Shown: one piece after another, positions 24,128-56,943 of the stretch
How positions within the stretch are numbered: position 1 is the stretch's first letter
Layout of the letters: each line of letters starts with the position of its first letter
Assembly: GCF_900105685.1 (NCBI RefSeq)
Contig: NZ_LT629781.1
Coordinates: 930,001-994,000 of the forward strand
Length of the DNA: 64,000 nt
Source: Verrucomicrobium sp. GAS474
Lineage (GTDB): Bacteria > Verrucomicrobiota > Verrucomicrobiia > Methylacidiphilales > GAS474
Direction of reading: 5' to 3'
Notes under the pieces: model-generated
Databases searched by the model: none
Told to the model about the DNA's origin: nothing
The model's input: the letters and a program-made list of their open reading frames with translations, nothing else
Made by a program: the position numbers and the translations under genes

Positions 24128-24739
24128 TTAATCTTTTTCGGTCGAGGTCGCCGGAGCCGTCGGCGGCAGCCGGGGCAGCTCGATCGGCTTCTTCGCCCAA
24201 TAGAAGAGGAACGACCCGATGAAGGCGCAGAGCGTCCCAATGACGAAGAGCATCCCGGGGGCGAACCACGTGCTGACGATCATCGGGAAGGCACTCCGCT
24301 CCGGGTGGGCCCGGTCGTAGACGACGAGGTCGGTCGTCGGGAGGCCCTCCTCGTCGATGAGGGGGTAGAGCGGCTTCAGCTGGCTCCCGACGGGGGCGCG
24401 GACCTCGAAGGAACTCCCCTGCCCGTCCGCAAAGCGGAATTCGTTCCAGAACGTGTAGCTCCGGTCGCGGGGCTCGAGCGCGGCGGTCACCTGCCGGTCG
24501 CTCTCCAGCACCTGGTCGGGGAGGCCCTCCTTCGTCTTCACGACGCGGACCGCCTCGGCCCGCGCCCGCTCCCCGAAGAGGAGGAGCCGCAGCGGCTCGG
24601 CGAACTGGGAGAAGCCGAGCCCCATCAGGAGGAGCCCCGCCGCGATCATCCCGAGCTTCGCCCGCGCGTACCCGGGCACATAGACCCCGGGCGCGGGGGT
24701 CGGGGCGTCTTGCGGAGTCAATGGATTCAACGGATTCAT
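24128..24739 (-). CDS. Two-TM membrane protein of unknown function (DUF3592-like)
   Basis: 203 residues. A Pro-rich N-terminus, one hydrophobic segment at about 30-52 (LGMIAAGLLLMGLGFSQF), a ~100-residue soluble domain (VTAALEPRDRSYTFWNEFRF, YPLIDEEGLPTTDLVVYD), and a second hydrophobic segment at about 157-183 (FAPGMLFVIGTLCAFIGSFL), then a Pro-rich tail. This layout resembles DUF3592 proteins, but I cannot confirm membership. The ATG overlaps the stop of the MFS gene (ATGA), so it is the last gene of the operon that starts at 35352 and may be a partner of the MFS carrier. Confidence 0.65.
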   Translation of the reverse strand: MNPLNPLTPQDAPTPAPGVYVPGYARAKLGMIAAGLLLMGLGFSQFAEPLRLLLFGERARAEAVRVVKTKEGLPDQVLESDRQVTAALEPRDRSYTFWNEFRFADGQGSSFEVRAPVGSQLKPLYPLIDEEGLPTTDLVVYDRAHPERSAFPMIVSTWFAPGMLFVIGTLCAFIGSFLFYWAKKPIELPRLPPTAPATSTEKD

Positions 24740-43164: not shown

Positions 43165-44538
43165 TTATTCTTGGAAGGTGTCCCAGCGGATCTCGACGAC
43201 GTCGAGGAGGGTCGTGCGGCGATCGGGGGGGATCGTCACGGTGAGGCGGTTCTCCCGCCACTCGAAGGGAACGGCCTTTCCGTCCCGCAACAAGGTGGCG
43301 AAGGCGGGGCGGCGGACGCCCTCGATGAGGGCGGGCTGATCGTGGACCCAATCGAAGTGGGCGTACCAGACGCTCCCTTTCCGGGTGATCGGGACGTTGC
43401 TCCGCTCGGGCCACGGCCCCGGCTCAACGTCTCCCAGCGAGACGCCGCTGTGTTCCATCCACGCGGCGAGCTGCCTCATCCGGTCGTAATAGACCTGCGG
43501 GAGCTCGCCCTTCGCGTCGGGGCCCGCGCTCGGGAGGAAGTTGCCGCCCCACGAGCGGGCGCGGGCCAGTTCGCCGAGGAACCAGCCCATCGGCTTGTAG
43601 GTCTCGTGATTGAGGTAGGCCCAGCCGCCGTCGGCCCAGACGTGGCAGTACTCCCACCACCCGCCGGGCCGTTGCGCGGGGAAGCGGCATTCGTGGGTCG
43701 AGAAATCGCCGTAGCCGTGGGCCCGCTCGTTGACGACGATCCCGGGCTGGAGCTCGCGGAGCCAGTCGAGGGTGAAGGCGTCCTGGCCCGCGCCATCGAA
43801 CCAGATCAGGTCGATCTTGCCGTAGCGGGTGAGGAGTTCCTCGACCTGTCCCTTGAGATGGCGCCGGAAGGCGGCGAGCCGCTCCGCCGCCTCGGCGGGG
43901 GCGAGGACGGGAAGCTCGACGGCCTCGTGATGGAGCCCAAGGTCGGGCTTCGCGCCGCCGTAGCGGAACGACATGTGGTGCCGGTTCCAATGCCAGTCGG
44001 GCGGGGAATAGTAGAGGCCGACCTTGAGGCCGTGCTCGCGGCAGGCGGCGACGAAGGGGGCGACGAGGTCGCGCCCGCCGAGGTGGGTGGCGGTGCCGAG
44101 TTCGCCGTGGGCGCTCGGCCACAGGGCGTAGCCATCGTGGTGCCGCGTGGTGAGGACGGCGTAGCGCGCGCCCGCCGCCTTCGCCGCCGCGAGCCACTTG
44201 CCCGGGTCGTAGTTCTCCGCAGTGAATCGGGCGGCCTGCTCCCAGTAGCGGGCGGGGGTGTAGCCCTTCTGCACCGAGGCGAAGCCATAACGCGCGAGGC
44301 TCGTCGCCGCCGCCCCGGGCTCCCGCGCCATCATCGGCCAGGAAAGGTCGCCCTCGCCCTCGACGGCGGAGATCCCCCAATGGAGGAAGAGGCCGAGGCC
44401 GCCGGGGCCGAACCACGCCGCGTCGGGATGGCCGTTGACGGCGAAGGCGGCGTCGGCCTCCTTGCGGACATTGCCGATCTGCGCGTGCTGGGCGGCGACT
44501 TCGGCGGAGAGGGTCGGATCGGGACTGGGGGTCGACAT
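43165..44538 (-). CDS. Alpha-L-fucosidase, glycoside hydrolase family 29
   Basis: 457 residues. Family signatures: WFGPGGLGLFLHWGISAVEG (His-Trp-Gly), YAVLTTRHHDGYALWPS, GLYYSPPDWHW, and GKIDLIWFDGAG with the nucleophile Asp. YCHVWADGGWAY and SWGGNFLPSAGPDAKGELP complete the barrel, and a short beta domain ends it. It hydrolyses terminal alpha-L-fucose with retention. No signal peptide is evident, so it is probably intracellular, downstream of the MFS importer. Spacing is 6 bp to the MFS gene and 2 bp to the esterase gene. Confidence 0.92.
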   Translation of the reverse strand: MSTPSPDPTLSAEVAAQHAQIGNVRKEADAAFAVNGHPDAAWFGPGGLGLFLHWGISAVEGEGDLSWPMMAREPGAAATSLARYGFASVQKGYTPARYWEQAARFTAENYDPGKWLAAAKAAGARYAVLTTRHHDGYALWPSAHGELGTATHLGGRDLVAPFVAACREHGLKVGLYYSPPDWHWNRHHMSFRYGGAKPDLGLHHEAVELPVLAPAEAAERLAAFRRHLKGQVEELLTRYGKIDLIWFDGAGQDAFTLDWLRELQPGIVVNERAHGYGDFSTHECRFPAQRPGGWWEYCHVWADGGWAYLNHETYKPMGWFLGELARARSWGGNFLPSAGPDAKGELPQVYYDRMRQLAAWMEHSGVSLGDVEPGPWPERSNVPITRKGSVWYAHFDWVHDQPALIEGVRRPAFATLLRDGKAVPFEWRENRLTVTIPPDRRTTLLDVVEIRWDTFQE

Positions 44539-44544
44539 GGGAAT

Positions 44545-45954
44545 TTAGGGGGTGGGAAGGGGAGCGACGTAGGCGTGGGGGCCGCCGTACCGCTTCCAAT
44601 CGCGGTAGACGAGGGCCATCGGGTAGAGCGCGACGACGAGGAGCGCGGCGGTCCACAGGAAGGTCATCCGGTAATTGCTCCCGACGAGATCCATGAACTT
44701 CCCGATGGCGTAGTTGCCGACGATCATCGCGCCGCAACTGAAGACGTTGATGCCGGAGTAGAACTGGCCGAATTTTTCCTGCGGGAAGAGCTTCATCGTC
44801 GCCGAGAGCGCCCCGATCCCCCAGCCGACGGCGGGGATCGTCAGGACGAGGCTGTAGGCGAGGAAACTCCTCGGGCTGACGACGTAATAAAAACCGATCA
44901 CCGAGACCGCGGCGACGCCCGCCATCGCCCACAACGTCACCCGCAGCGGGCCGAGGCGGTCGCAGAGCGCACCCGTCGGATAATAGAGGACGAGGGCGGG
45001 GACCCCGCCCCAGGCGAAGAGCTTCCCCATGGTCTCCATGTCGAGCCCGAGCGTCTCCCGCGTGAAGAGCGCGGCGAAGGGGCCGGCGCAGCCGAGCGCC
45101 ATGCTGGCGAGGACGTAGCCGATGAAGAAATTCCGGTAGATCGGGAGCCGGAGGCACTCGCGGAAATAGAGGCCGAACGACGCCGCGAGGCCGGGCCGGT
45201 CTTCCTTCGCGGGCGGCGGGGGGTACTCCCCCTCCCTCACGTTGCGGCACATGAGGAGGAAGGCGGCGAGGTAGAAGAGGCCGACGCCGAGGAAGACTTC
45301 CTTCCGGTGGGCCATCATGTGGGGGAAGACCCACCAGAGGAAGGCGAAGGTGCTGGCCGACCCGACGATGCGGAAGCACGAGAGGAAGCGGGCCATCATC
45401 TCCTGCGGGACGACGTCGCGGAGGAGCCAGTTGTAGGCGTTCACCAGGACCATGTTGAAGAAGTGGAACGAGACGACGAGGACGCAGAGGAGCGGCAGGA
45501 AGACCGCCGCCTCGGTGACCGAGGGAGCGACGTGGAAGAAGAGGTGCCGGTGGAGCCACCCGGCGATCTCGGGGACGAAGCCGATCCCGACGAGGGCCGC
45601 GACGGCGAGCGGGGTGACGACGTAGAGGAACGGGATCCGCCGCCCGAGGGGACCGCGATGATTGTCGCTCCACCGGCTGAGATTGGGGAGGAAGAGAATG
45701 TTCACGAGTCCCGCGAAACTCCCCGTCATGACGCCGATGAGGGCGTTCGAGGCGTGGAGGTCCTTGAGATAAAACGGCATGAACCGGCCGAAGATATTCT
45801 CGAAGAACGTGAAGGCGAAATCGCCCCACAGAAGCCAGATCGAAAGGACGGCGAGCCCGCCCGCCGTGTAGCGGAGGGTCCCCGCGCGATAAAGCCGCGG
45901 CGTGACGGCGGCGGGGACGGGCGCGCGGAGCGGGGGCGGGGCGGTCGGTTCCAC
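44545..45954 (-). CDS. MFS transporter, probable oligosaccharide importer
   Basis: 469 residues, about twelve hydrophobic helices. SRWSDNHRGPLGRRIPFLYV gives the MFS loop 2-3 motif (D-x-x-x-G-x-x-G-R-R) as in sugar/proton symporters of the SLC45/GPH kind. VVPQEMMARFLSCFRIVG lies in the 4-5 region, and the second half begins near LPIYRNFFIGYVLASMA. The position between secreted enzymes (lyase, GH-A) and cytoplasmic enzymes (GH29, GH78) suggests uptake of fucose- or rhamnose-containing oligosaccharides. Substrate inferred from context only. Unlike the carrier at 24736 it has no large insert. Confidence 0.87.
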   Translation of the reverse strand: MEPTAPPPLRAPVPAAVTPRLYRAGTLRYTAGGLAVLSIWLLWGDFAFTFFENIFGRFMPFYLKDLHASNALIGVMTGSFAGLVNILFLPNLSRWSDNHRGPLGRRIPFLYVVTPLAVAALVGIGFVPEIAGWLHRHLFFHVAPSVTEAAVFLPLLCVLVVSFHFFNMVLVNAYNWLLRDVVPQEMMARFLSCFRIVGSASTFAFLWWVFPHMMAHRKEVFLGVGLFYLAAFLLMCRNVREGEYPPPPAKEDRPGLAASFGLYFRECLRLPIYRNFFIGYVLASMALGCAGPFAALFTRETLGLDMETMGKLFAWGGVPALVLYYPTGALCDRLGPLRVTLWAMAGVAAVSVIGFYYVVSPRSFLAYSLVLTIPAVGWGIGALSATMKLFPQEKFGQFYSGINVFSCGAMIVGNYAIGKFMDLVGSNYRMTFLWTAALLVVALYPMALVYRDWKRYGGPHAYVAPLPTP

Positions 45955-45970
45955 GGGGAGGCTCGCTCTC

Positions 45971-48595
45971 TTAGTGCTTCGCTTCCTGGACGAGGTAGAG
46001 CGGATCGGGGCCGACCGGGAGATCGGTCGAAAGCGCGACGGGATTCCCCATCATGTCATAGCCGCTCCGTCCCGCGAAGGGGACGGCGGCGATCTCGCCG
46101 AGCTTCACCGGCTTCTTCGCCCAGACGACGTCGGTCTTCCGCCCCGCGAGGAGGAACGAGGCGACCGTCGCCTTGCCCCCGCCTGCCTCGAGCTGGACTT
46201 GGACCAGCCCCGCCGCGCTCGCCTCCTCGAGGAAGTGGGCCATCGCCGCCTGCGCGGCGAGGGCGGGGCGGGGCGCGCCGTTGACCTCGATGTAGTCGGC
46301 GAAGCCGTCCCGGTAGGCGATCCGGCCCGAGGGCTGGGCGAAGCCGGCGTACTGGTAGGCTTCCTTGATGCCAAGGGCCTTCAGGGCGATCGTCGTCCGG
46401 GTCAGCAGCGCGGCCCCCTCGGCGACGGTCATCCCGTTGCCGGGCAGGCAGGCCCCGTCGAGCCACGACTTGATCTTGTCGGCGCTGAACTCGGTGACGA
46501 GGACGTCGAGCGGCTTCCCGGAACGCCCCTTCTGCGCACGGACCTCGGCGAGGCGGTCGAGGAAGAGCTGGTTCTCCTCCGGCCCGATGCCGAGGCTCAT
46601 CTCGTAATAGTGGGTCGAGTAGGCGTCGAGGCAGGAGGCGACGCCGAGGTCGAGGATCTCCCTCGTGAAGGGCCGGGAGAGCGTCGTGACGACGCCGCCG
46701 CTGAAGCGGGCCTCGGTCGCGGGCGGGAAGGCAGGGAAGGCGTTCTTCACGATGTCGACGTAGACCTGCGGGCGGCTCTTCCCGGCGGGGATGCGGAGGA
46801 AGCCGCCGCCGTCGGGCTCGTTCCAGACTTCCCATTCCTTGATGTAGGGGCCGTAAGCCTTGAGCGATCTGCCGATGTAGCCGCGCCAAGCGTCCCAGTC
46901 CTTCGGCGGCCAGTTGTCGAACCAGTTGCTCTTCGCGGCGTCGGCGGGAGTCGGCGCATCGGCCTCGGAGGCCGGGGTACTACCGAGCATGCCGAGGAAG
47001 CGGAAGCCCATCTTCGTCGCCCGCTCGAGGCCGCGCGTCTCGAAGCTCCAGTTCCCGGGCGTCGGCTCGACGGCGGCCCAGATCGTGATGAGCGGGGGCC
47101 AGAGGCGGAGGAGGCGGAACCCGGCCCGCGAGGCGATGTGGAGATTGTAGGGGGTGAGGTCGGCGTGGGTGCCGAAGAACGGCTCCTTCACCTCCGAGGC
47201 CGCCTTCACGGGGGGAAGGACCGCGTAGATGATCTCGGCGGCGGGGAGCGGTCCTCCGAGGGGATCGTCGACCACGCACTTGAAGCCGCCGTAGAGGGCG
47301 GTCGGCAACACGAGGGGGATGTCGGCGGCCTCGGTCGGCGCGGCGGGAACGGCGACGGGGAACGTCTTGATCTCCCGTCCCCAGGCGTCGACGACATGGA
47401 CGGTAAGGGTCCGCGCCTTGTCGCTGAGGACGTGGAGGAGGAAGGCGGCCTTCTCCCCCTTGTCGAAGAGGCTGGCCGGATCGTTCCCCGGCGCGGGCTC
47501 GCTCCCGGCCTGGAAGACGACGGGCGCGGCGGCGGGGAGGTCGTCCTCGGTCGCCGTCACGTCGTCGAGCTGGTAGACGGCGGCGTCGGCGGTCGCCATC
47601 TCGAGGCAATACCGTCCGCCGAACTCGGGCTGCGGGAGGACGGGGAAGGTGTAGCGGTGCCATTCGGCGTCGGGACTCGTGAACTCCTTCCCCTGCCAGG
47701 CGATGTTCGGGAAGAGGCCGTTGGCGAGGTGGACGAGGAGCTTCCGGTCGGGGGCGTCGGCCTTCATCCAGAAGCCGATCGTCGCCGGATGGCCGTAGCG
47801 GAGGGGGAAGTAGCCGGTGGTGAGCATCGCCCGCGCCCCCTCCCTAACCTCGAAGCGGAGGACCCGCTTCCCTTGCGGCGCGTCGGCGGCCTTCACCGGG
47901 GCGAACTCGGCCCCGACGTTCGCCTCCTGCGCGGCCATCGCGTCGGCCATGCCCCGCCGCTCGCGGAACGTCCCCGTCCAGCCGTCGCGGCCGAGCTCGA
48001 AGGAACCGTTCGGAATCCGGTTCCCGGAAACGGCGGGCTCCTCGGAGACGGCGGGGAGCGGCGTCATGCTCACGTCGTCGAGCCAGAACGTCGTCTCGTC
48101 GTGGATCGAGAAGACGATGCCCGCCATCTTCGTGTCGAAGGACTGGGGAAGGGTGAAGTCGAAGACGTATTCCTTCCAATCCTCCGAGGGGGAGACCTCG
48201 TAGCTGAGGGCGTTGGTGTAGGGCGGGGCCATCTTCCGGATGCTCATCCGGACCGCGCCGGTGTTGCTCCGGCCCCGGAGCCAGAAACGGACCCGGTAGG
48301 AACCGGCGGCCTTGATCTCGAGCGGGAACTGGGTCCACTGGAGATCGGCAGGGCCGGTCTTGCGGAGCGTGACCCGCTTCGAGAACCGGCCCGCATGGGG
48401 ATTCTCCGGGTCGAGGGCATATTCGGCGTCGAGCTTCCCCCAGTTGTTCTCCCGCCAGGCCGTCGAGTCGGCCTCCTCGAAACCGGGATTGGCCATCAGG
48501 TTCGCCTCCTCGGACCGGGCCGGGAGAGCCAGGACCCCGCCGGAGAGCAGGACGAGGAGGAAGAAAGGAAAGAGCGAACGACGGAAAGGCGTCAT
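45971..48595 (-). CDS. Secreted two-CBM clan GH-A glycoside hydrolase (GH39-like)
   Basis: 874 residues. Signal peptide (LFPFFLLVLLSGGVLALPA). Two CBM4/9-like beta-sandwiches: about 32-180 (ANLMANPGFEEADSTAWREN) and 190-350 (RIPNGSFELGRDGWTGTF), then a linker domain. The (beta/alpha)8 barrel begins about 470 (EPFFGTHADLTPYNLHIASR), with acid/base Glu593 in EWEVWNEPDG and nucleophile Glu702 in VLVTEFSADK. A short beta domain ends it. The layout resembles GH39/GH5-type enzymes; the exact family needs a profile search. The first CBM is closely related to the C-terminal domain of the next gene upstream in the operon (48624-51362). Confidence 0.82.
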   Translation of the reverse strand: MTPFRRSLFPFFLLVLLSGGVLALPARSEEANLMANPGFEEADSTAWRENNWGKLDAEYALDPENPHAGRFSKRVTLRKTGPADLQWTQFPLEIKAAGSYRVRFWLRGRSNTGAVRMSIRKMAPPYTNALSYEVSPSEDWKEYVFDFTLPQSFDTKMAGIVFSIHDETTFWLDDVSMTPLPAVSEEPAVSGNRIPNGSFELGRDGWTGTFRERRGMADAMAAQEANVGAEFAPVKAADAPQGKRVLRFEVREGARAMLTTGYFPLRYGHPATIGFWMKADAPDRKLLVHLANGLFPNIAWQGKEFTSPDAEWHRYTFPVLPQPEFGGRYCLEMATADAAVYQLDDVTATEDDLPAAAPVVFQAGSEPAPGNDPASLFDKGEKAAFLLHVLSDKARTLTVHVVDAWGREIKTFPVAVPAAPTEAADIPLVLPTALYGGFKCVVDDPLGGPLPAAEIIYAVLPPVKAASEVKEPFFGTHADLTPYNLHIASRAGFRLLRLWPPLITIWAAVEPTPGNWSFETRGLERATKMGFRFLGMLGSTPASEADAPTPADAAKSNWFDNWPPKDWDAWRGYIGRSLKAYGPYIKEWEVWNEPDGGGFLRIPAGKSRPQVYVDIVKNAFPAFPPATEARFSGGVVTTLSRPFTREILDLGVASCLDAYSTHYYEMSLGIGPEENQLFLDRLAEVRAQKGRSGKPLDVLVTEFSADKIKSWLDGACLPGNGMTVAEGAALLTRTTIALKALGIKEAYQYAGFAQPSGRIAYRDGFADYIEVNGAPRPALAAQAAMAHFLEEASAAGLVQVQLEAGGGKATVASFLLAGRKTDVVWAKKPVKLGEIAAVPFAGRSGYDMMGNPVALSTDLPVGPDPLYLVQEAKH

Positions 48596-48623
48596 GAAAG
48601 AAACGGAAAGGCGAAATCGGAAA

Positions 48624-51362
48624 TCAATTCGAGGCCGGGGAGACGACGGTCAGACTGGCATCGTCGATCCAGATTGTCATGGCGTTCCGGAAGCTGATGT
48701 AGAGGCCGACCTTCTTGTCCTCGAAGACGGCGGGGACGGTGAAGTCGAACGTCCCTTCCTTCCACTCCTCGGTCGTCGCGAGGGAGGAGGTGCCGTAGGT
48801 CGCGTAGGGCGCCCCGGCGTCCCGGATCGTCACGTCGACCTTGCCGTTCCCGGTCGCCGATCCCTTGATCCAATACTTCACCCGATAGGTCGTCCCGCCC
48901 TTGAGGTCGAGCGGCCATTGGCCTTCCTGCAGCTCGTTGCCCGCGGAGGCCTCCTTCAGGGTCATCCTCTTGGAATAGCGGCCCGCATGGAAGACCTGGT
49001 CGTCGAAGGCATACTCGGCTTCGAGCTTCGCCCAGTTGTTGTCGATCCAGCCCGCCTTCTTCGGCTCCTCGAAGCCGGGATTGATAAGGAGGTTCGGCGC
49101 TTCCGCCCGATCGTCGGCCCGGGCCTGGGAGAGCGCGCCGCCCGAGAGGAGGGCGGCCGCCGCGAGGGAGCAGGCCGCCGCCGTCATGACCGACCGCCGC
49201 CGCGCCGCCGCGAAGAGGAATCCGCCCGAAAGCACCAGCAGCAGCCAGGTCGACGGCTCCGGCACCGCGACCGCGACGAGGGTCAGCGAGATATCGCTCG
49301 CGTCGTAGTTCAACGTGGCGGTGTAGCCGGTAAGGCCGGTCCCCAGCACCAGGCCGCTGGTGAGGCCGTCGGCGGTCAGCGTCGTCCCGGCGTTGCTGTA
49401 GAACTGGAAGAGGGTGAAGGTCCCTTCCTGGGCGTTCGAGAAGTTGAGCGCGTTGCTGTTCAGCACCAGGTCGCCGATGCCGTAGTTGATGAACTTCAGG
49501 GTGTCGCTCGTGTTCGACGCGCCGAGGTTGAAGGTGAAGGTCGAACCGGTCTGCATCGTCAGCAGCGTCCCGCCGCTCTGGAGGCCGTTCATCGTCAGCG
49601 TCTGCACCGCCGAGCCGCCGACGCCCGGATAGATGCTCGAGCCGGAGAGGACGGTGATGCCGTTGGTCCCGCCCGGCGCGAAGATGCCGGTGCCGCCGAG
49701 GATGCCGGTCTCGCCCGCCGCCGTCAGGTCGGCGGTTCCGGTCGCGGTCGCCCGTACGGAGAGGGTGACAACCTTCGTCGTCGCGTTGATCCCGATGATG
49801 ACGCTCCCGGCGACGATGCCCGTCCCCGAGACCGTCTGGCCGACGGCGAGTCCGGCGACGCTGGTCACCGTCACGCTCGCGTTGTTCGCGGTGGTCGTCG
49901 CCCCGGTGAGGGTGACGGCGGTCGCGCCGACCGTGACGGCCCCCGTGCCCGAAGCACTGCCGCTGGTGTTCTGGGCGACGAGGGCGGTGCCGCCGTAGAC
50001 GTAGGTCCCGCCGCCGTAGGTGTTCGCGCCGCTCTCGACGACCCGGCCCCCGCCCGTGGCGATGACGGCCGACTTGTAGGTGGAGGCCGCGCTGGTGTCG
50101 GAGATAACGCCGCTGAAGTTCGCCGTCCCGCCCGAGGCCGCGGCGAGGTAGACCATCGGGATCGAGGGGTTGGAGCTGTTCGACGTCACCATCTGGAGGT
50201 TGCCGCTGAAGGTCACGCTGCCCGTTCCCGAGATGCCGAATTCGGCGAGGTGGCTGGTCGAGGAATTGTTCGTCGCGGTGGCGAGGGCGGCGGTGACGTT
50301 GTGGCCGCTCGTCGCCAGCAGGGCGGCGAGGCCGGTGACCGAGTTCGAGTAGTCGCCGACGGCGACGGCGAGGCCGTTGTTCGTCCCGAGGGCGTTGTTG
50401 CTGTCGAGGACCCAGATCCCCTCCTTCACGGCGACCCCGGCGGTGCTCGCCAGGCCGCTGTTGTCGCCCGAGAGGACGACCGTCCCGGCGGAGAAGATGT
50501 TGGCGACGCCGTTCGTCCCCGCGCCGTTCAGGACGATCTTCTGCGCGAGCGTCCCCGAGCTGGCGAGGTTCCCGGAAAGCGTGAGGGTCTTCCCCGCGCC
50601 GACCGCGCCGGTGCCGAGGGTGAAGGTCCCGCCGCCCGTCCCCTGGTCGGCGAAGGTGATGTTGTTCGAGAAGGTGCTGTTCGCCGTCATCGTCCCGGTG
50701 GCGATGCCGAGCTGGAGCGTCGTCGCCCCGTTGTTCTGCATCAGGACGGTCCCCGTGCCGAACGAGGCGAGCGTGCCCGAGACGATGCCGAGCTGGACGG
50801 TGCCCTGGTTCACGGTGAGGTTGCCGTTGATGGCGGTCGCCGTCGTGAACTGGAGCGAACCGGCCCCGGTCTTGGTCAGCGTGACGCCGGAGCCGGCGTT
50901 GAAGGCGGTGCCGGTCGATTGGAGGGTCGATCCCGTCCCGACGTTCCAGGTCTGGCTCGCCGAGAGGGTGAGCGGGGCGGTGATCTTCACTGTCTGGCTG
51001 GAGGCCCCGATGGTGACGCCGCCCGCGCCGATCGTGAAGGCGGTGACGCCCGTGCCCGTCGCGAGGGTGACGGCCGCCGTGTTCGGGTTGATCGTCAGCC
51101 CCGAGATCGAGCCCGTCGCGCTCCAGGCGGAATCGATGGTCGAGGTCAGGGCCGCCGTCCCGCCGGTGATCGTCACGGCCTCGGAACCGTCGGTCAGCGG
51201 TACGCCGTTGCTCCAGTTCGAGGCGGTGCTCCAGCCGCTGCTGGTCGTCGCCGTCCAGGTCGTCTGCGCCTCGCCCCGACCGCCCAAGGCGAACGAGGCG
51301 ATTCCCGCAAGGAGCATGGAGAGAAATGCCCCTCGGCGGTTCATCGTCGGATTCGGATTCAT
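48624..51362 (-). CDS. Autotransporter-repeat protein with internal PEP-CTERM signal fused to signal peptide + CBM
   Basis: 912 residues. A signal peptide (LLAGIASFALGGRGEAQ) leads to about 670 residues of autotransporter-associated beta-strand repeats, rich in Gly/Thr/Ser/Asn (GGTYVYGGTALVAQNTSGSA and similar), then VPEPSTWLLLVLSGGFLFAA and ARRRS at about 700-724, a complete exosortase signal. Instead of stopping, the frame continues VMTAAACSLAAAALLSGGAL-SQARADD, a second signal peptide starting at a Met (49187), and a CBM4/9-like domain (NLLINPGFEEPKKAGWIDNN ... TIWIDDASLTVV). In the neighbouring frame a TGA (49184-49186) overlaps that ATG. This suggests two formerly overlapping genes joined by a one-base shift in the Arg codons. 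Either a real fusion or an indel/sequencing error. Confidence 0.82.
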   Translation of the reverse strand: MNPNPTMNRRGAFLSMLLAGIASFALGGRGEAQTTWTATTSSGWSTASNWSNGVPLTDGSEAVTITGGTAALTSTIDSAWSATGSISGLTINPNTAAVTLATGTGVTAFTIGAGGVTIGASSQTVKITAPLTLSASQTWNVGTGSTLQSTGTAFNAGSGVTLTKTGAGSLQFTTATAINGNLTVNQGTVQLGIVSGTLASFGTGTVLMQNNGATTLQLGIATGTMTANSTFSNNITFADQGTGGGTFTLGTGAVGAGKTLTLSGNLASSGTLAQKIVLNGAGTNGVANIFSAGTVVLSGDNSGLASTAGVAVKEGIWVLDSNNALGTNNGLAVAVGDYSNSVTGLAALLATSGHNVTAALATATNNSSTSHLAEFGISGTGSVTFSGNLQMVTSNSSNPSIPMVYLAAASGGTANFSGVISDTSAASTYKSAVIATGGGRVVESGANTYGGGTYVYGGTALVAQNTSGSASGTGAVTVGATAVTLTGATTTANNASVTVTSVAGLAVGQTVSGTGIVAGSVIIGINATTKVVTLSVRATATGTADLTAAGETGILGGTGIFAPGGTNGITVLSGSSIYPGVGGSAVQTLTMNGLQSGGTLLTMQTGSTFTFNLGASNTSDTLKFINYGIGDLVLNSNALNFSNAQEGTFTLFQFYSNAGTTLTADGLTSGLVLGTGLTGYTATLNYDASDISLTLVAVAVPEPSTWLLLVLSGGFLFAAARRRSVMTAAACSLAAAALLSGGALSQARADDRAEAPNLLINPGFEEPKKAGWIDNNWAKLEAEYAFDDQVFHAGRYSKRMTLKEASAGNELQEGQWPLDLKGGTTYRVKYWIKGSATGNGKVDVTIRDAGAPYATYGTSSLATTEEWKEGTFDFTVPAVFEDKKVGLYISFRNAMTIWIDDASLTVVSPASN

Positions 51363-53605
51363 GTGGTTTGGTTTTGGTTCGAGGCGGAAAGGGAGAGGGA
51401 GGAGGAGCGCCGCTCCCGGGCGACGGCAAAGAGGCCTCCTGCGAAGAGAAGGAGAAGCGCCCGGGAGGGCTCCGGCACCGCGACGAGGGTCAGCGAGATG
51501 TCATTCGCGTCGTAGTTCAGCGTGGCGGTGTAGCCGGTGAGGCCGGTCCCCAGCACCAGGCCGCTGGAGAGGCTGTCGGCGGTCAGCGTCGTCCCGGCGT
51601 CGGAATAGAACTGAAAGAGGGTGAAGGTCCCCGCCTGGGCGTTCGAGAAGTTGAGCGCGTTGCCGTTCAGCGCCAGGTCGCCCGAGACGTAGTTGAAGAG
51701 CTTGATCGCGTCGCTCGTGTTCCCCGCGCCGAGGTTGAAGGTGAAGCTCGCGCCGCCCTGCATCGTCAGGAGCGTCCCGGTCGTCGAGCCGCCGTTGAGG
51801 GTCAGCGTCTGGACCGCCGTCCCGCCGACGCCGGGATAGACGCTCGATCCCGAGAGGACGGTGATCCCGTTTGTCCCCGTCGGCGCGATGATGCCGCTGC
51901 CACCGAGGATGCCGGTCTCGGCCGCCACGGAGAGGGTGACGGTCCCCGTCGCCGTCGCCTTCTGGGAGAGGTTGACCGTGTTGGTCCCGGTGTTGATCGA
52001 GAGGATCGTCGTCCCCGCCGGGATGCCGGTCCCGGTGACGGTCTGCCCGATCATGAGCCCGGCGGTGCTGGTCACCGTCACGGCGACGCTCGACGCGGTG
52101 GTACCCGCGCCGGTGAGCGTGACCGCTGCCGTGCCGACATTGACGGCCCCGGTACCGACGCCGCTCCCGGCGGTGTTCGTGACGACGAGGGCGGTGCCGC
52201 CGCCGACGGTGGTTCCCCCGGCGTAGGTGTTCGCGCCGCCGAGGCCGACCTTGCCGCCGCCCCGGGCGACGACCGCCGAGGTGAGGGTGTTCGAGCCGCT
52301 GTCAGAGATGACGCCGGTGAAGTTCGCGATGCCGTTCGTCCCGGCGTTGAGGAAGACGACCGGGGCCATCCCGTTGCTCGCCCCCTTCTGCAGCCCGAGG
52401 TTCCCGGAGAAAGTCACCGAGCCGGTCCCGGAGAGGCCGAACTCGGCGGCTCCCGCGACGGCGGTGTTGTTGAAGATCGTCGAGAGGGTGCCGGTCACGT
52501 TGTTCCCGTTCGTCGCGAGGAGGGCGGCGAGGCCGGGGGCCGAGCTCGAGGTCTCGCCGATCTGGACGGCGAGGTTGTTGTTCGTCCCGAAGGCGTTCGC
52601 GTTGCCGAGGACCCAGAGGCCCTCGCGGATGACGACCTTCGAGGTGGAGGTGAGGCCGCTGTTGTTCCCCGTGATCACCGCCGTGCCGCTGGTGAAACTG
52701 TTCGGGACAGTCCCCGAGGTGTTCAGGAGGATCTGCTGCGCGATCGCCCCCGTGGCGCTGGTCGAGTTGGCACTGCTCCACGTGCCGCCGAAGGTCAGCG
52801 TCGTCCCGGAGGCGATGCTCCCGGTCAGCAGGCTGTAGAGGCCGCCGCCGCTCCCCTGGTCGTAGAACTGAATGTTGTTGGAAAAGGTGCTGTTCGTGTT
52901 GATGTTGCCGAAGGCCCCGAGCTGGAGGTTCGTCTGCCCGTTGTTCTGCCAGGTGAACGCCGCCGTGCCGAACTGCTGGATGAGCTGCCCCGCCGAGCCG
53001 CCCGTGAGGCCGAAGCCGATGGTCCCCTGGTTCAGGACCACGCCGCCGCTCATCGTCGGGCTCGAGCTGTTCAGGGTGAGGGTGCCCGATCCGCTCTTCG
53101 TCATCGTGACGCCGGAGCCGTAGCTGAACGAGGCGCCGCCGATCGCGAAGGTCGAGCCGGTCCCGATGTTCCACGTCTGGCTGGCCGAGAGAAGGAGGGG
53201 GGCGCTGAGCGTCGTCGTCACGCCCGAGGCCCCGACGGTGATGCCGCCCGCGCCGATCGTGAAGGAGGTGACGCCGGTGCCCGCCGTGACGGTCAGCGCC
53301 GCCGTGCTCGGGTTCAGGGTGAGGCCGGAGACCGCCCCCGTCGCGCTCCAGGCCGCATCGATGGTCGAGGTCATCGCCGAGGTCGTCCCCGTGATCGTGA
53401 CGGCCTCGGAACCGTCGGTCAGCGGCACGCCGTTGCTCCAGTTCGAGGCGGTGCTCCAGCCGCTGCTGGCAGTGCCGGTCCAGGTGGTCTGGGCCTGGCC
53501 CGGGCTGGAGAGGACGGTCGAGACGGCGAGGGCGAGGAGGACGGAAAGCCGGAGCCCCGTCCGATGCATGGTGCGATACGTTTTGCGTTGCGTCTTCATA
53601 GGCAT
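51359..53605 (-). CDS. Autotransporter-associated beta-strand repeat protein with PEP-CTERM signal
   Basis: 748 residues. Signal peptide (LSVLLALAVSTVLSSPGQAQ), a long beta-helix-type body of Gly/Thr/Ser/Asn repeats (TTWTGTASSGWSTASNWSNG at the start), then VPEPSRALLLLFAGGLFAVA, RERR and a 16-residue tail. Predicted surface-anchored beta-helix exported by Sec and processed by exosortase; there is no outer-membrane autotransporter barrel. Start 53605; in-frame ATGs at 53599 and 53569 are possible. It is a tandem duplicate of the next gene: the first ~45 residues after the signal and the last ~100 before PEP are nearly identical. The stop overlaps the ATG of that gene. Confidence 0.86.
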   Translation of the reverse strand: MPMKTQRKTYRTMHRTGLRLSVLLALAVSTVLSSPGQAQTTWTGTASSGWSTASNWSNGVPLTDGSEAVTITGTTSAMTSTIDAAWSATGAVSGLTLNPSTAALTVTAGTGVTSFTIGAGGITVGASGVTTTLSAPLLLSASQTWNIGTGSTFAIGGASFSYGSGVTMTKSGSGTLTLNSSSPTMSGGVVLNQGTIGFGLTGGSAGQLIQQFGTAAFTWQNNGQTNLQLGAFGNINTNSTFSNNIQFYDQGSGGGLYSLLTGSIASGTTLTFGGTWSSANSTSATGAIAQQILLNTSGTVPNSFTSGTAVITGNNSGLTSTSKVVIREGLWVLGNANAFGTNNNLAVQIGETSSSAPGLAALLATNGNNVTGTLSTIFNNTAVAGAAEFGLSGTGSVTFSGNLGLQKGASNGMAPVVFLNAGTNGIANFTGVISDSGSNTLTSAVVARGGGKVGLGGANTYAGGTTVGGGTALVVTNTAGSGVGTGAVNVGTAAVTLTGAGTTASSVAVTVTSTAGLMIGQTVTGTGIPAGTTILSINTGTNTVNLSQKATATGTVTLSVAAETGILGGSGIIAPTGTNGITVLSGSSVYPGVGGTAVQTLTLNGGSTTGTLLTMQGGASFTFNLGAGNTSDAIKLFNYVSGDLALNGNALNFSNAQAGTFTLFQFYSDAGTTLTADSLSSGLVLGTGLTGYTATLNYDANDISLTLVAVPEPSRALLLLFAGGLFAVARERRSSSLSLSASNQNQTT

Positions 53606-53618
53606 TGCGTTCGTTCGA

Positions 53619-55847
53619 TCAAGCGGGGGGCGTTGGCCCGGCCGCCTTGGTTGTCATCTTCAGTCGAGAAAAACCGGAATCGATCTCCCCGGTGATGCCG
53701 TCCCCGATCGTCAGCTTCAGCCCGCCGTCGGGGAGCCTCTCCAGCGCGGGAGGCGCGTCGTCCGCCGCCGCGGTGCCCCAGCTCCACGCCCAGACGACGC
53801 GGCCCCGGAGGGCGGGGCCTGCCTGCCGGGCGCGGAGGAACCAGTTCTCCTCTCCGTCCTTCAGCGTCTGGTCCCAGCCCGGCGTCCCGGCGATCCGGTG
53901 GTGGCCGAAGGAGAGCTCGAGCGGCGCGTCGAGCGGCTGGAGGTGGAGGACGGCGCGGGCCGCTCCCTTGCTCCATTCGATCCGGGTCCACGCGCCGACG
54001 GGGGCGGTCCGCTTCCCCTGCGTCGCCACCTCGAGCGGCGCGCCGGGATCGACGATGTTCTTCCGGCGCACGGCGTAGGCCTCCCGGTCGAGCGGGGCTC
54101 CCTCGACGTAATCGGCGGGGGCGAGCGCCGAGTGGAAGAACCAGTCGATGCGCGGATGGGCGGACGACGACGCGGGGCGCTCCACTAGGTCGGCGAGGAC
54201 GAGGGCATGCCCATAGGCGTGGACGACCGCGCGGCGATGAAGGTGGCCGGGCGTGACCGGCTGGTTCAGGAACCAGCGGTTCGCGTCCTCGCGCGGGTCG
54301 TGGAGGAAGATCCGCTTCGGGAGCACGCCGCCCGAGTTGAAGACGAGGAAGGCGTCGGCCCCCTCGGCCTCGTTCCGCGCGTGGAGCGTCCCGACGACGG
54401 GGTCGGCCTCGGCGTTGTCGAGGGCGACGGTGTTATGGAAGAGGCTCGAGTCGTGTCCCTTCGGGCCGATGCGGGGGAAGGGATCGACGAGGACGTCGAC
54501 GCCCGCGACGGAGAGGGTAACGTGGCCGTGGTCGTTGTGCCCCTTCCCGGTCCCGGCATAGCCGAAGCGGGCCGTGACGCACGAGGCCGCCGCGTCCCAG
54601 CCGCTCCGGCTGAAGACGGCGCCGTAGTCGGCCATGACGTCGAGGCGGCGGCGGGGGACCTTCGCCTCGGTGACGGGGCGATAGACCCAGAAGCTCTTGA
54701 GCGGCTCGTAGAGGCCGAGGCCGAGGACCATCGCGGGCGTCACCTTCATCGGCGTGAGGCACCGCCGGTTGACCTCCCCGGCGCGGCGGCGGATGAACCA
54801 GCCGAGCTCGGGATCGCCGCTGAGGGCGTAGGCGTGGAGGAAGCAGGAGGAGAGGTCGAGGGGGACCGACTCGGAGGAGCCGCGCGGGATGTTCCGCTCG
54901 TACGGCCCGGGGATCGCCGTCCGGTAGTAGGCCCGGGCGAGGTCGACGTAGCCGGGGTAGCCAAGGTAGAGGGAGGCCTGCTCGTCGGGCTCGGTCGCGC
55001 CGTAGAGGTCGCGGTCGGGGAAGACCTGCGACGCCGTCAGCGCGTAGTAGAAGATCCCCTCGACCGACATCACCTGGTAGCCCATCGAGCCCTCGTGCTG
55101 GGAACCGTCGTCGAAGAAGGTGGAGCGGTACTCCCGGTAGCGCCGCCACGACTGCTCCAGGAGGAGCTTCGCCCGCTCGGGATCGCGCGTCGCGAGGGCG
55201 GAGGCGAGGACGCCGTTGTTCGCCCAGAGGCCCCGGTTGCTGTACTTCAGGGCCTCCTCGTTGAAGGCGTAGCGGACGGCGTAGTCGGCGAGGAGGTCTT
55301 CCAGCAGGGCCTTCTCCGCCGCCGCGAGCTCGTCGGGCGCGTGGGCCTCGAGCATGTCGTAGAGGTGGAGGAAGGCGATCATGAGGCCGCCCTCGGTGAA
55401 GTAGTTGCAGCCCCGGGTGAAGCTGTCGAAGAACTGGGCGAGGTTGTCCTGGTTCGCCGTCGGCGGCTTGATGCCGCGCGGGATCATCTCGAGGTTCGCC
55501 TTCCACTGCGGGGCGACGGTCCGGTAATGGGCGAGGAGCGCCCGGAGCCAATCGCCGACGCGGTGCCAGAGGGCGCGGTCCTCCCGGACGTAGGCGAGGA
55601 CGACGGTCGCCATCACCTCGTCGAGGTCGCCGTCGTGGCAGAGCATCGGGAACACCGGGGGACGGAGCCCGCCCACCTCGGCGAAGTGGCGCTCCGCCTC
55701 CCCGAGGAAGCGGTTCCAGAGGGGATCGTCGACGTTCCTCAGCACCTCCGGGCGCTGCCCCGGCGTCGTCGAGACGAAGGGATGCCGCATCTGCGAGAAG
55801 CGGGAGACGGAGGGAACGGGAGTGGGGCCGGGGTTGAAGGCGTTCAT
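53619..55847 (-). CDS. Heparinase II/III-like polysaccharide lyase
   Basis: 742 residues. An N-terminal alpha/alpha toroid (about 1-380) includes ANQDNLAQFFDSFTRGCNYF, EEALKYSNRGLWANNGVLAS and DDGSQHEGSMGYQVMS, where the Asn/Tyr/His side chains expected at lyase catalytic centres occur. The C-terminal beta-sandwich contains FGYAGTGKGHNDHGHVTLSV and AGVDVLVDPFPRIGPKGHDS, the H-N-D-H-G motif of the heparinase II/III C-terminal family. It would cleave uronate-containing polysaccharide by beta-elimination. No clear signal peptide. Gaps to both operon neighbours are 12-13 bp. The substrate may be a rhamnose/fucose/uronate polymer, inferred from context. Confidence 0.82.
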   Translation of the reverse strand: MNAFNPGPTPVPSVSRFSQMRHPFVSTTPGQRPEVLRNVDDPLWNRFLGEAERHFAEVGGLRPPVFPMLCHDGDLDEVMATVVLAYVREDRALWHRVGDWLRALLAHYRTVAPQWKANLEMIPRGIKPPTANQDNLAQFFDSFTRGCNYFTEGGLMIAFLHLYDMLEAHAPDELAAAEKALLEDLLADYAVRYAFNEEALKYSNRGLWANNGVLASALATRDPERAKLLLEQSWRRYREYRSTFFDDGSQHEGSMGYQVMSVEGIFYYALTASQVFPDRDLYGATEPDEQASLYLGYPGYVDLARAYYRTAIPGPYERNIPRGSSESVPLDLSSCFLHAYALSGDPELGWFIRRRAGEVNRRCLTPMKVTPAMVLGLGLYEPLKSFWVYRPVTEAKVPRRRLDVMADYGAVFSRSGWDAAASCVTARFGYAGTGKGHNDHGHVTLSVAGVDVLVDPFPRIGPKGHDSSLFHNTVALDNAEADPVVGTLHARNEAEGADAFLVFNSGGVLPKRIFLHDPREDANRWFLNQPVTPGHLHRRAVVHAYGHALVLADLVERPASSSAHPRIDWFFHSALAPADYVEGAPLDREAYAVRRKNIVDPGAPLEVATQGKRTAPVGAWTRIEWSKGAARAVLHLQPLDAPLELSFGHHRIAGTPGWDQTLKDGEENWFLRARQAGPALRGRVVWAWSWGTAAADDAPPALERLPDGGLKLTIGDGITGEIDSGFSRLKMTTKAAGPTPPA

Positions 55848-55859
55848 GGACGGAGCGTA

Positions 55860-56858
55860 TCAGGAAATCAGCGACATCATCTCCTCGCGTACGCGGCCCT
55901 GGAGGGGCTCCCGCCGGAGGTAGCGGCCGAATTCCTCGACGGCCATCGCGCCGAGGCGGCGGCATTCGTTCCCGAGGGTCCCGGCGATGTGGGGGGTGAG
56001 GAGGACGTTCGGCAGCGAATAGAGGGGGGACTCGGGCGGCGCGGGCTCGTGGGCGGTGACGTCGAGGAGGGCGTAGAGGTCGGGGCGGCGGGCGAGGACC
56101 TCGATCATCTCGTCCTCGTTCACGACCGGGCCGCGCGCCGTGTTGATGAACGTCGCGCCCGCCTTCATCCGGGAAAAATGATGGCCCCGGATCATCCCCT
56201 CGGTCTCGGGGAGCCATGGCGCGTGGAGGGAGGCGACGTCGGCGACCTCGAAGAGTTCCTCCAGCGACACGAGCTCGACGCCGAGTTCCCGCGCGGCCTC
56301 GACGGAGAGGAAGGGATCGTAGGCGACGAGGCGGAGCTGGAAATGGCGGAGGAGGCCGATCAGGCGGCGCGCCACGGCCCCGACCCCGATCACGCCGACG
56401 ACGCTGCCGTAGATGCCGGAGAAGGGGCGGCGGATCATCCGGCGCGTGGCGCGGGCCTCGGCGGTGTGCCGCCAGAGCGACTTCAGGCTGAGGAGGACCT
56501 GGCCGAGGGTGAACTCGGCGACGGTGACGGCGAGGGCCGCGTTGGTCGAGCTGACGACGATCTCCCGCCGCCAGAGGGCGTCGGTGACGAAGTGGCGGAC
56601 GCTCCCCGCCGCGTAGAAGATCGCCTTGAGGTTCGGCGCGGCGGCGAGGAAGGCCTCGTCGCAGCGGGGCATCCCCCAGCCGGAGAAGATCACCTCGGCC
56701 TCGGCCAGGGCCGGGTCGGCGGGATCGTCGGCGAGCATCCGGGCCGTCCGCAGGGGGATCGGGATCGCCGTCCAGCCCTCGAGCCGCTTCCGCTCCTCGG
56801 GTCCGTAGACCTGGTGCCAATATTCCTCCTCGAGGAGGAAGAGCGCCTTGATTTTCAT
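55860..56858 (-). CDS. D-isomer-specific 2-hydroxyacid dehydrogenase family protein
   Basis: 332 residues. The NAD-binding motif VVGVIGVGAVARRLIGLLRH has a GxGxxA pattern. The catalytic triad region shows INTARGPVVNEDEM (Arg), DVTAHEPAPPESPLY (Glu) and LLTPHIAGT (His), as in phosphoglycerate or hydroxypyruvate dehydrogenases. Such proteins beside sugar-acid catabolism reduce 2-keto acids or oxidise hydroxy acids. The start at 56858 is chosen because homology begins with MKIKALFLL; an ATG at 56924 extends into the regulatory region. First gene of the nine-gene operon ending at 39484 and divergent from the LacI gene, whose operator should also control it. Confidence 0.88.
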   Translation of the reverse strand: MKIKALFLLEEEYWHQVYGPEERKRLEGWTAIPIPLRTARMLADDPADPALAEAEVIFSGWGMPRCDEAFLAAAPNLKAIFYAAGSVRHFVTDALWRREIVVSSTNAALAVTVAEFTLGQVLLSLKSLWRHTAEARATRRMIRRPFSGIYGSVVGVIGVGAVARRLIGLLRHFQLRLVAYDPFLSVEAARELGVELVSLEELFEVADVASLHAPWLPETEGMIRGHHFSRMKAGATFINTARGPVVNEDEMIEVLARRPDLYALLDVTAHEPAPPESPLYSLPNVLLTPHIAGTLGNECRRLGAMAVEEFGRYLRREPLQGRVREEMMSLIS

Positions 56859-56943
56859 CGGATGGGAAGGGTTTTGGAAAGGGGGAGAACGGCTGTTTTC
56901 GTCGCGTTCGGTGGCGATCACCATCTATGCAACCAAAGCGGTC

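Follow-up and report, generated by a model that had tools for sequence, protein, structure and literature searches.

A PEP-CTERM sorting signal in the middle of a 912-residue reading frame of Verrucomicrobium sp. GAS474 points to a probable fusion of two genes

A long open reading frame on the minus strand of a 64,000-nucleotide stretch of the Verrucomicrobium sp. GAS474 genome (the window, whose numbering is used below) carries an exosortase sorting signal in its interior. The original prediction, made from the letters of the sequence, held that this PEP-CTERM signal is followed by a Met, a signal-like peptide and a CBM, and this arrangement was confirmed by the translation and by matches to the PF07589, TIGR02595 and PF02018 families. 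The relevant features of the locus are listed here.

48624..51362, minus strand: fused ORF of 912 aa, with the start ATG at 51362 and the stop ending at 48624
51264..51362, minus strand: N-terminal signal peptide, aa 1-33 (sequence and crude signal-peptide scan; cleavage site by eye)
49269..51263, minus strand: beta-strand-repeat body, aa 34-698 (63% identity over 710 aa to the neighbouring 748-aa protein)
49194..49268, minus strand: PEP-CTERM sorting signal, aa 699-723, ending in RRR (PF07589 and TIGR02595, both above cut-off)
49184..49187, minus strand: ATGA, the in-frame Met 726 overlapping a TGA of the adjacent frame (sequence)
49116..49187, minus strand: second, internal signal-like peptide, aa 726-749, MTAAACSLAAAALLSGGALSQARA (hydropathy; cleavage between ARA and DD by eye)
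48696..49094, minus strand: CBM_4_9 domain, aa 757-889 (PF02018, E 5.8e-12)
51359..53605, minus strand: tandem paralog of the PEP-CTERM half, 748 aa, whose TGA overlaps the ATG at 51362 (63% identity)
45971..48595, minus strand: next gene, 874 aa, with a signal peptide, a CBM_4_9 domain and a glycosidase-like remainder (profile match, alignment)

The 912-aa frame runs without an internal stop from the PEP-CTERM half into the CBM half. Its first half resembles the PEP-CTERM/exosortase proteins (PF07589, TIGR02595; EpsH, PF09721) in having an N-terminal signal peptide, a PEP motif, a hydrophobic helix and a basic cluster, and the genome encodes one exosortase match (PF09721, EpsH family, E 4.8e-38, C1:2518263-2519042). 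The sorting signal at aa 699-723 scores 23.6 bits against a cut-off of 20.7 for PF07589, and 21.7 bits against a cut-off of 16 for TIGR02595, while a PF12951 match in the beta-strand-repeat body falls below the family cut-off. Unlike in those proteins, however, the signal is not C-terminal and 189 further residues follow it. The second half resembles secreted CBM_4_9 proteins (PF02018) in that a complete domain, with profile positions 2-129 of 136 covered and thus near full-length, lies behind a signal-like peptide, the latter called by hydropathy and by eye. This CBM is 42% identical to the N-terminal CBM_4_9 domain of the gene at 45971-48595, its PDB matches (1gui and 2zex) are both weak, and the genome encodes two more secreted proteins with a single CBM and a comparable size (191 and 192 aa). 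What sets it apart is that the domain follows a PEP-CTERM signal within a single frame, an arrangement seen in none of the 22 relatives that were read.

The locus belongs to an operon-like run of minus-strand genes with short gaps (window 43165-56924). Besides two PEP-CTERM proteins, this run encodes a CBM protein and a transporter-like protein, and a weak match to alginate lyase also falls within it.

PEP-CTERM signals have been described as C-terminal virtually without exception, with fewer than 10 additional residues in 87% of the members surveyed by Haft et al. 2006 (PMC1569441). A comparable picture emerges from other genomes of the order, where the median number of residues beyond the basic cluster is 2 and the maximum is 9 in 79 PEP-CTERM proteins, a sample that favours high-scoring copies and in which the motif was located by pattern. 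Within the GAS474 genome, a TIGR02595 search returned 33 matches at E values up to 10, with 27 over the cut-off, and family searches together with fetched stretches gave 30 loci that were read, including the fused one. Counted from the V of VPEP, the stop comes after 213 aa in the fused ORF versus 28-54 aa in the 29 other loci.

Some of these other loci have features of their own. Leaving the fused ORF aside, the three longest tails are 39, 40 and 54 aa, and the tandem paralog and locus L034 are among them. In the paralog, the sorting signal is followed by a long tail (ERRSSSLSLSASNQNQTT, window 51359-51420, minus strand) that leads into the ATGA overlap with the fused gene. The L034 frame (G000:C1:1659294-1659374, minus strand) ends 54 aa past the motif at TCATGA, which is possibly a stop overlapping a start. 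Two other PEP-CTERM genes, L016 and L017 (G000:C1:1510796-1510988), are convergent, with stop codons no more than a few bases apart.

At the junction, read on the minus strand, RRR occupies 49194-49202, SV occupies 49188-49193 and the ATG occupies 49185-49187, such that the sorting signal ends in RRRSV and Met 726 follows directly. The TGA of the adjacent frame lies at 49184-49186 and overlaps this ATG, exactly where it had been predicted. In the fused frame, third-position GC is 0.75-1.0 per 20-codon block on either side of the junction, which gives both halves the appearance of coding sequence. The adjacent frame, to which the TGA belongs, has another stop approximately 33 codons upstream and reads as non-coding noise.

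Comparison with relatives argues that the two halves derive from separate genes. The upstream neighbour, which aligns with the PEP-CTERM half over 710 positions, terminates after its own sorting signal. All 22 of the CBM relatives have an in-frame stop 13-129 codons before the match, the stretch between lacks a PEP motif, and in most of them a signal peptide is visible before the CBM. In a genome of the same genus (G002), a PEP-CTERM gene ends in MRRLTPHFLA followed by a stop, and the ATG of a CBM-bearing protein lies 8 bp further on in another frame; an alternative GTG start overlapping the PEP-CTERM stop is also possible for this pair.

A conserved single protein, which the original prediction had named among the observations that would overturn it, was rejected on the basis of our searches. 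In samples of 384 class genomes and 387 phylum genomes, we found no second uninterrupted full-length match to a query comprising the PEP-CTERM signal, signal peptide and CBM, and a whole-protein scan of the collected genome contigs likewise confirmed no relative. The exact junction DNA was also absent from these contigs, a set from which the organism's own genome may be left out. Some weaker matches in class genomes do extend into the query's PEP or signal-peptide portion (G079, G251, G081, G105 and G020:C3), and the one that was gene-called, in G079, has a stop inside the match and a gene with its own signal peptide.

With these observations in mind, we favour a lineage-specific head-to-tail fusion, to which we assign a probability of roughly 60%, wherein one small change joined one of two tandem PEP-CTERM genes to a gene for a small secreted CBM_4_9 protein. 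The proposal of a two-gene fusion is thus well supported by the stop of the paralog, the 22 separate CBM genes, the same-genus pair and the lack of a second continuous copy, and the fusion is probably specific to this lineage and real rather than a sequencing slip. The two genes would have been neighbours in the operon-like run, and the intervening stop would have been lost either because a single base was inserted or deleted or because the stop codon was substituted, with the data favouring neither route.

The prediction had also placed the change within an ATGA overlap, and this part fares less well. Deleting one base from the segment that separates the helix from the ATG does place the TGA at 49184-49186 in frame and generates an ATGA overlap, as had been proposed for a single-base change restoring two genes. 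A one-base insertion does not have this effect, however, and a TCG to TAG substitution immediately after RRR serves equally well by creating an in-frame stop 3 bp before the ATG. Other gene pairs do share the ATGA arrangement, as was claimed (51359-51362 and 24736-24739), but this carries little weight. Because ATGA occurs at 14 of the 24 ATG starts called in the window, the occurrence of a TGA overlapping the ATG of Met 726 is close to a coin toss, and the argument from ATGA is weak. Moreover, the G002 pair is most simply read as separated by its 8-bp gap.

The alternative that survives best is that the two genes are in fact separate in the cell and appear merged in the record owing to a one-base sequencing or assembly error in a GC-rich run. 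No sample searched contains a second such arrangement, one extra base would suffice, and the stretch is very GC-rich; on the other hand, the run is not a homopolymer, and the genome consists of one contig with 99.9% completeness. We consider such an error unlikely, at about one in four, although this figure reflects judgement rather than calculation.

Another possibility is that the frame is continuous but that some or most of the CBM protein arises by separate initiation at its ancestral start, the ATG at 49187. This would accord with the fact that CBM relatives begin with their own signal peptide and that the paralogous downstream gene likewise starts ATGACG. However, no Shine-Dalgarno sequence was seen by eye at this start, though neighbouring starts in the operon-like run are without one too, and a consensus search for a sigma-70-type promoter in 48500-54000 yielded none. 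Furthermore, a signal peptide counted from this ATG has no K or R before its core. Such a lack was noted in 9 of the 46 hits of our crude signal-peptide scan of the window and fetched loci, with ATG 49187 included, and by eye the other eight are internal Met residues or frames unlikely to be secreted. We therefore judge separate initiation to be improbable. Programmed +1 frameshifting in the CGG run, which had been put forward for testing, would end a first protein at the TGA that is indeed present over the ATG. It was rejected as extremely improbable, given that reading continues in the zero frame without any shift, inspection by eye revealed no slippery site, the shifted frame is not coding upstream of the TGA and relatives in the class and phylum genomes hold no conserved example.

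If the fusion is real, its product would be one precursor translated from the zero frame, with the junction forming a hairpin in the membrane. The PEP-CTERM helix would run from outside to inside, the RRRSV loop would be cytoplasmic, and the second signal-like peptide would run from inside to outside. The positive-inside rule is the reason for positioning the Arg cluster inside and for expecting the PEP-CTERM helix to be halted in the membrane. Given that read-through supplies the RRR that the signal peptide lacks when counted from its own ATG, the two elements could share the Arg cluster, which would act as the anchor of the first and the n-region of the second. Signal peptidase cutting between ARA and DD, together with exosortase, could then still free two proteins in mature form, and this would account for the fusion being tolerated. 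That the locus encodes a working precursor of this kind, with an exosortase signal and an internal Sec signal peptide from which two proteases release two surface proteins, is nevertheless a rather doubtful proposition.

There is a bacterial precedent for a precursor with an internal signal peptide in FbcH, the cytochrome b/c1 polyprotein of Bradyrhizobium, and a literature search for precedents of this type gave nothing usable. Like FbcH, the fused ORF is a single frame in which a membrane helix precedes an internal signal peptide and from which two exported products are possible. Unlike FbcH, it has a sorting signal at the junction, and its arrangement is not conserved. The sorting of the first half may also simply be lost, since the few PEP-CTERM copies with much longer tails were regarded as possibly non-functional by Haft et al. 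2006 (PMC1569441).

Should the merged frame prove to be a sequencing error, the finding would matter only as a correction to one record. If real, it would provide a natural copy of a PEP-CTERM signal placed before a complete exported domain, and would thereby be a test of whether exosortase depends on having a C-terminus close by, and of whether a polyprotein junction can be formed by a sorting signal.
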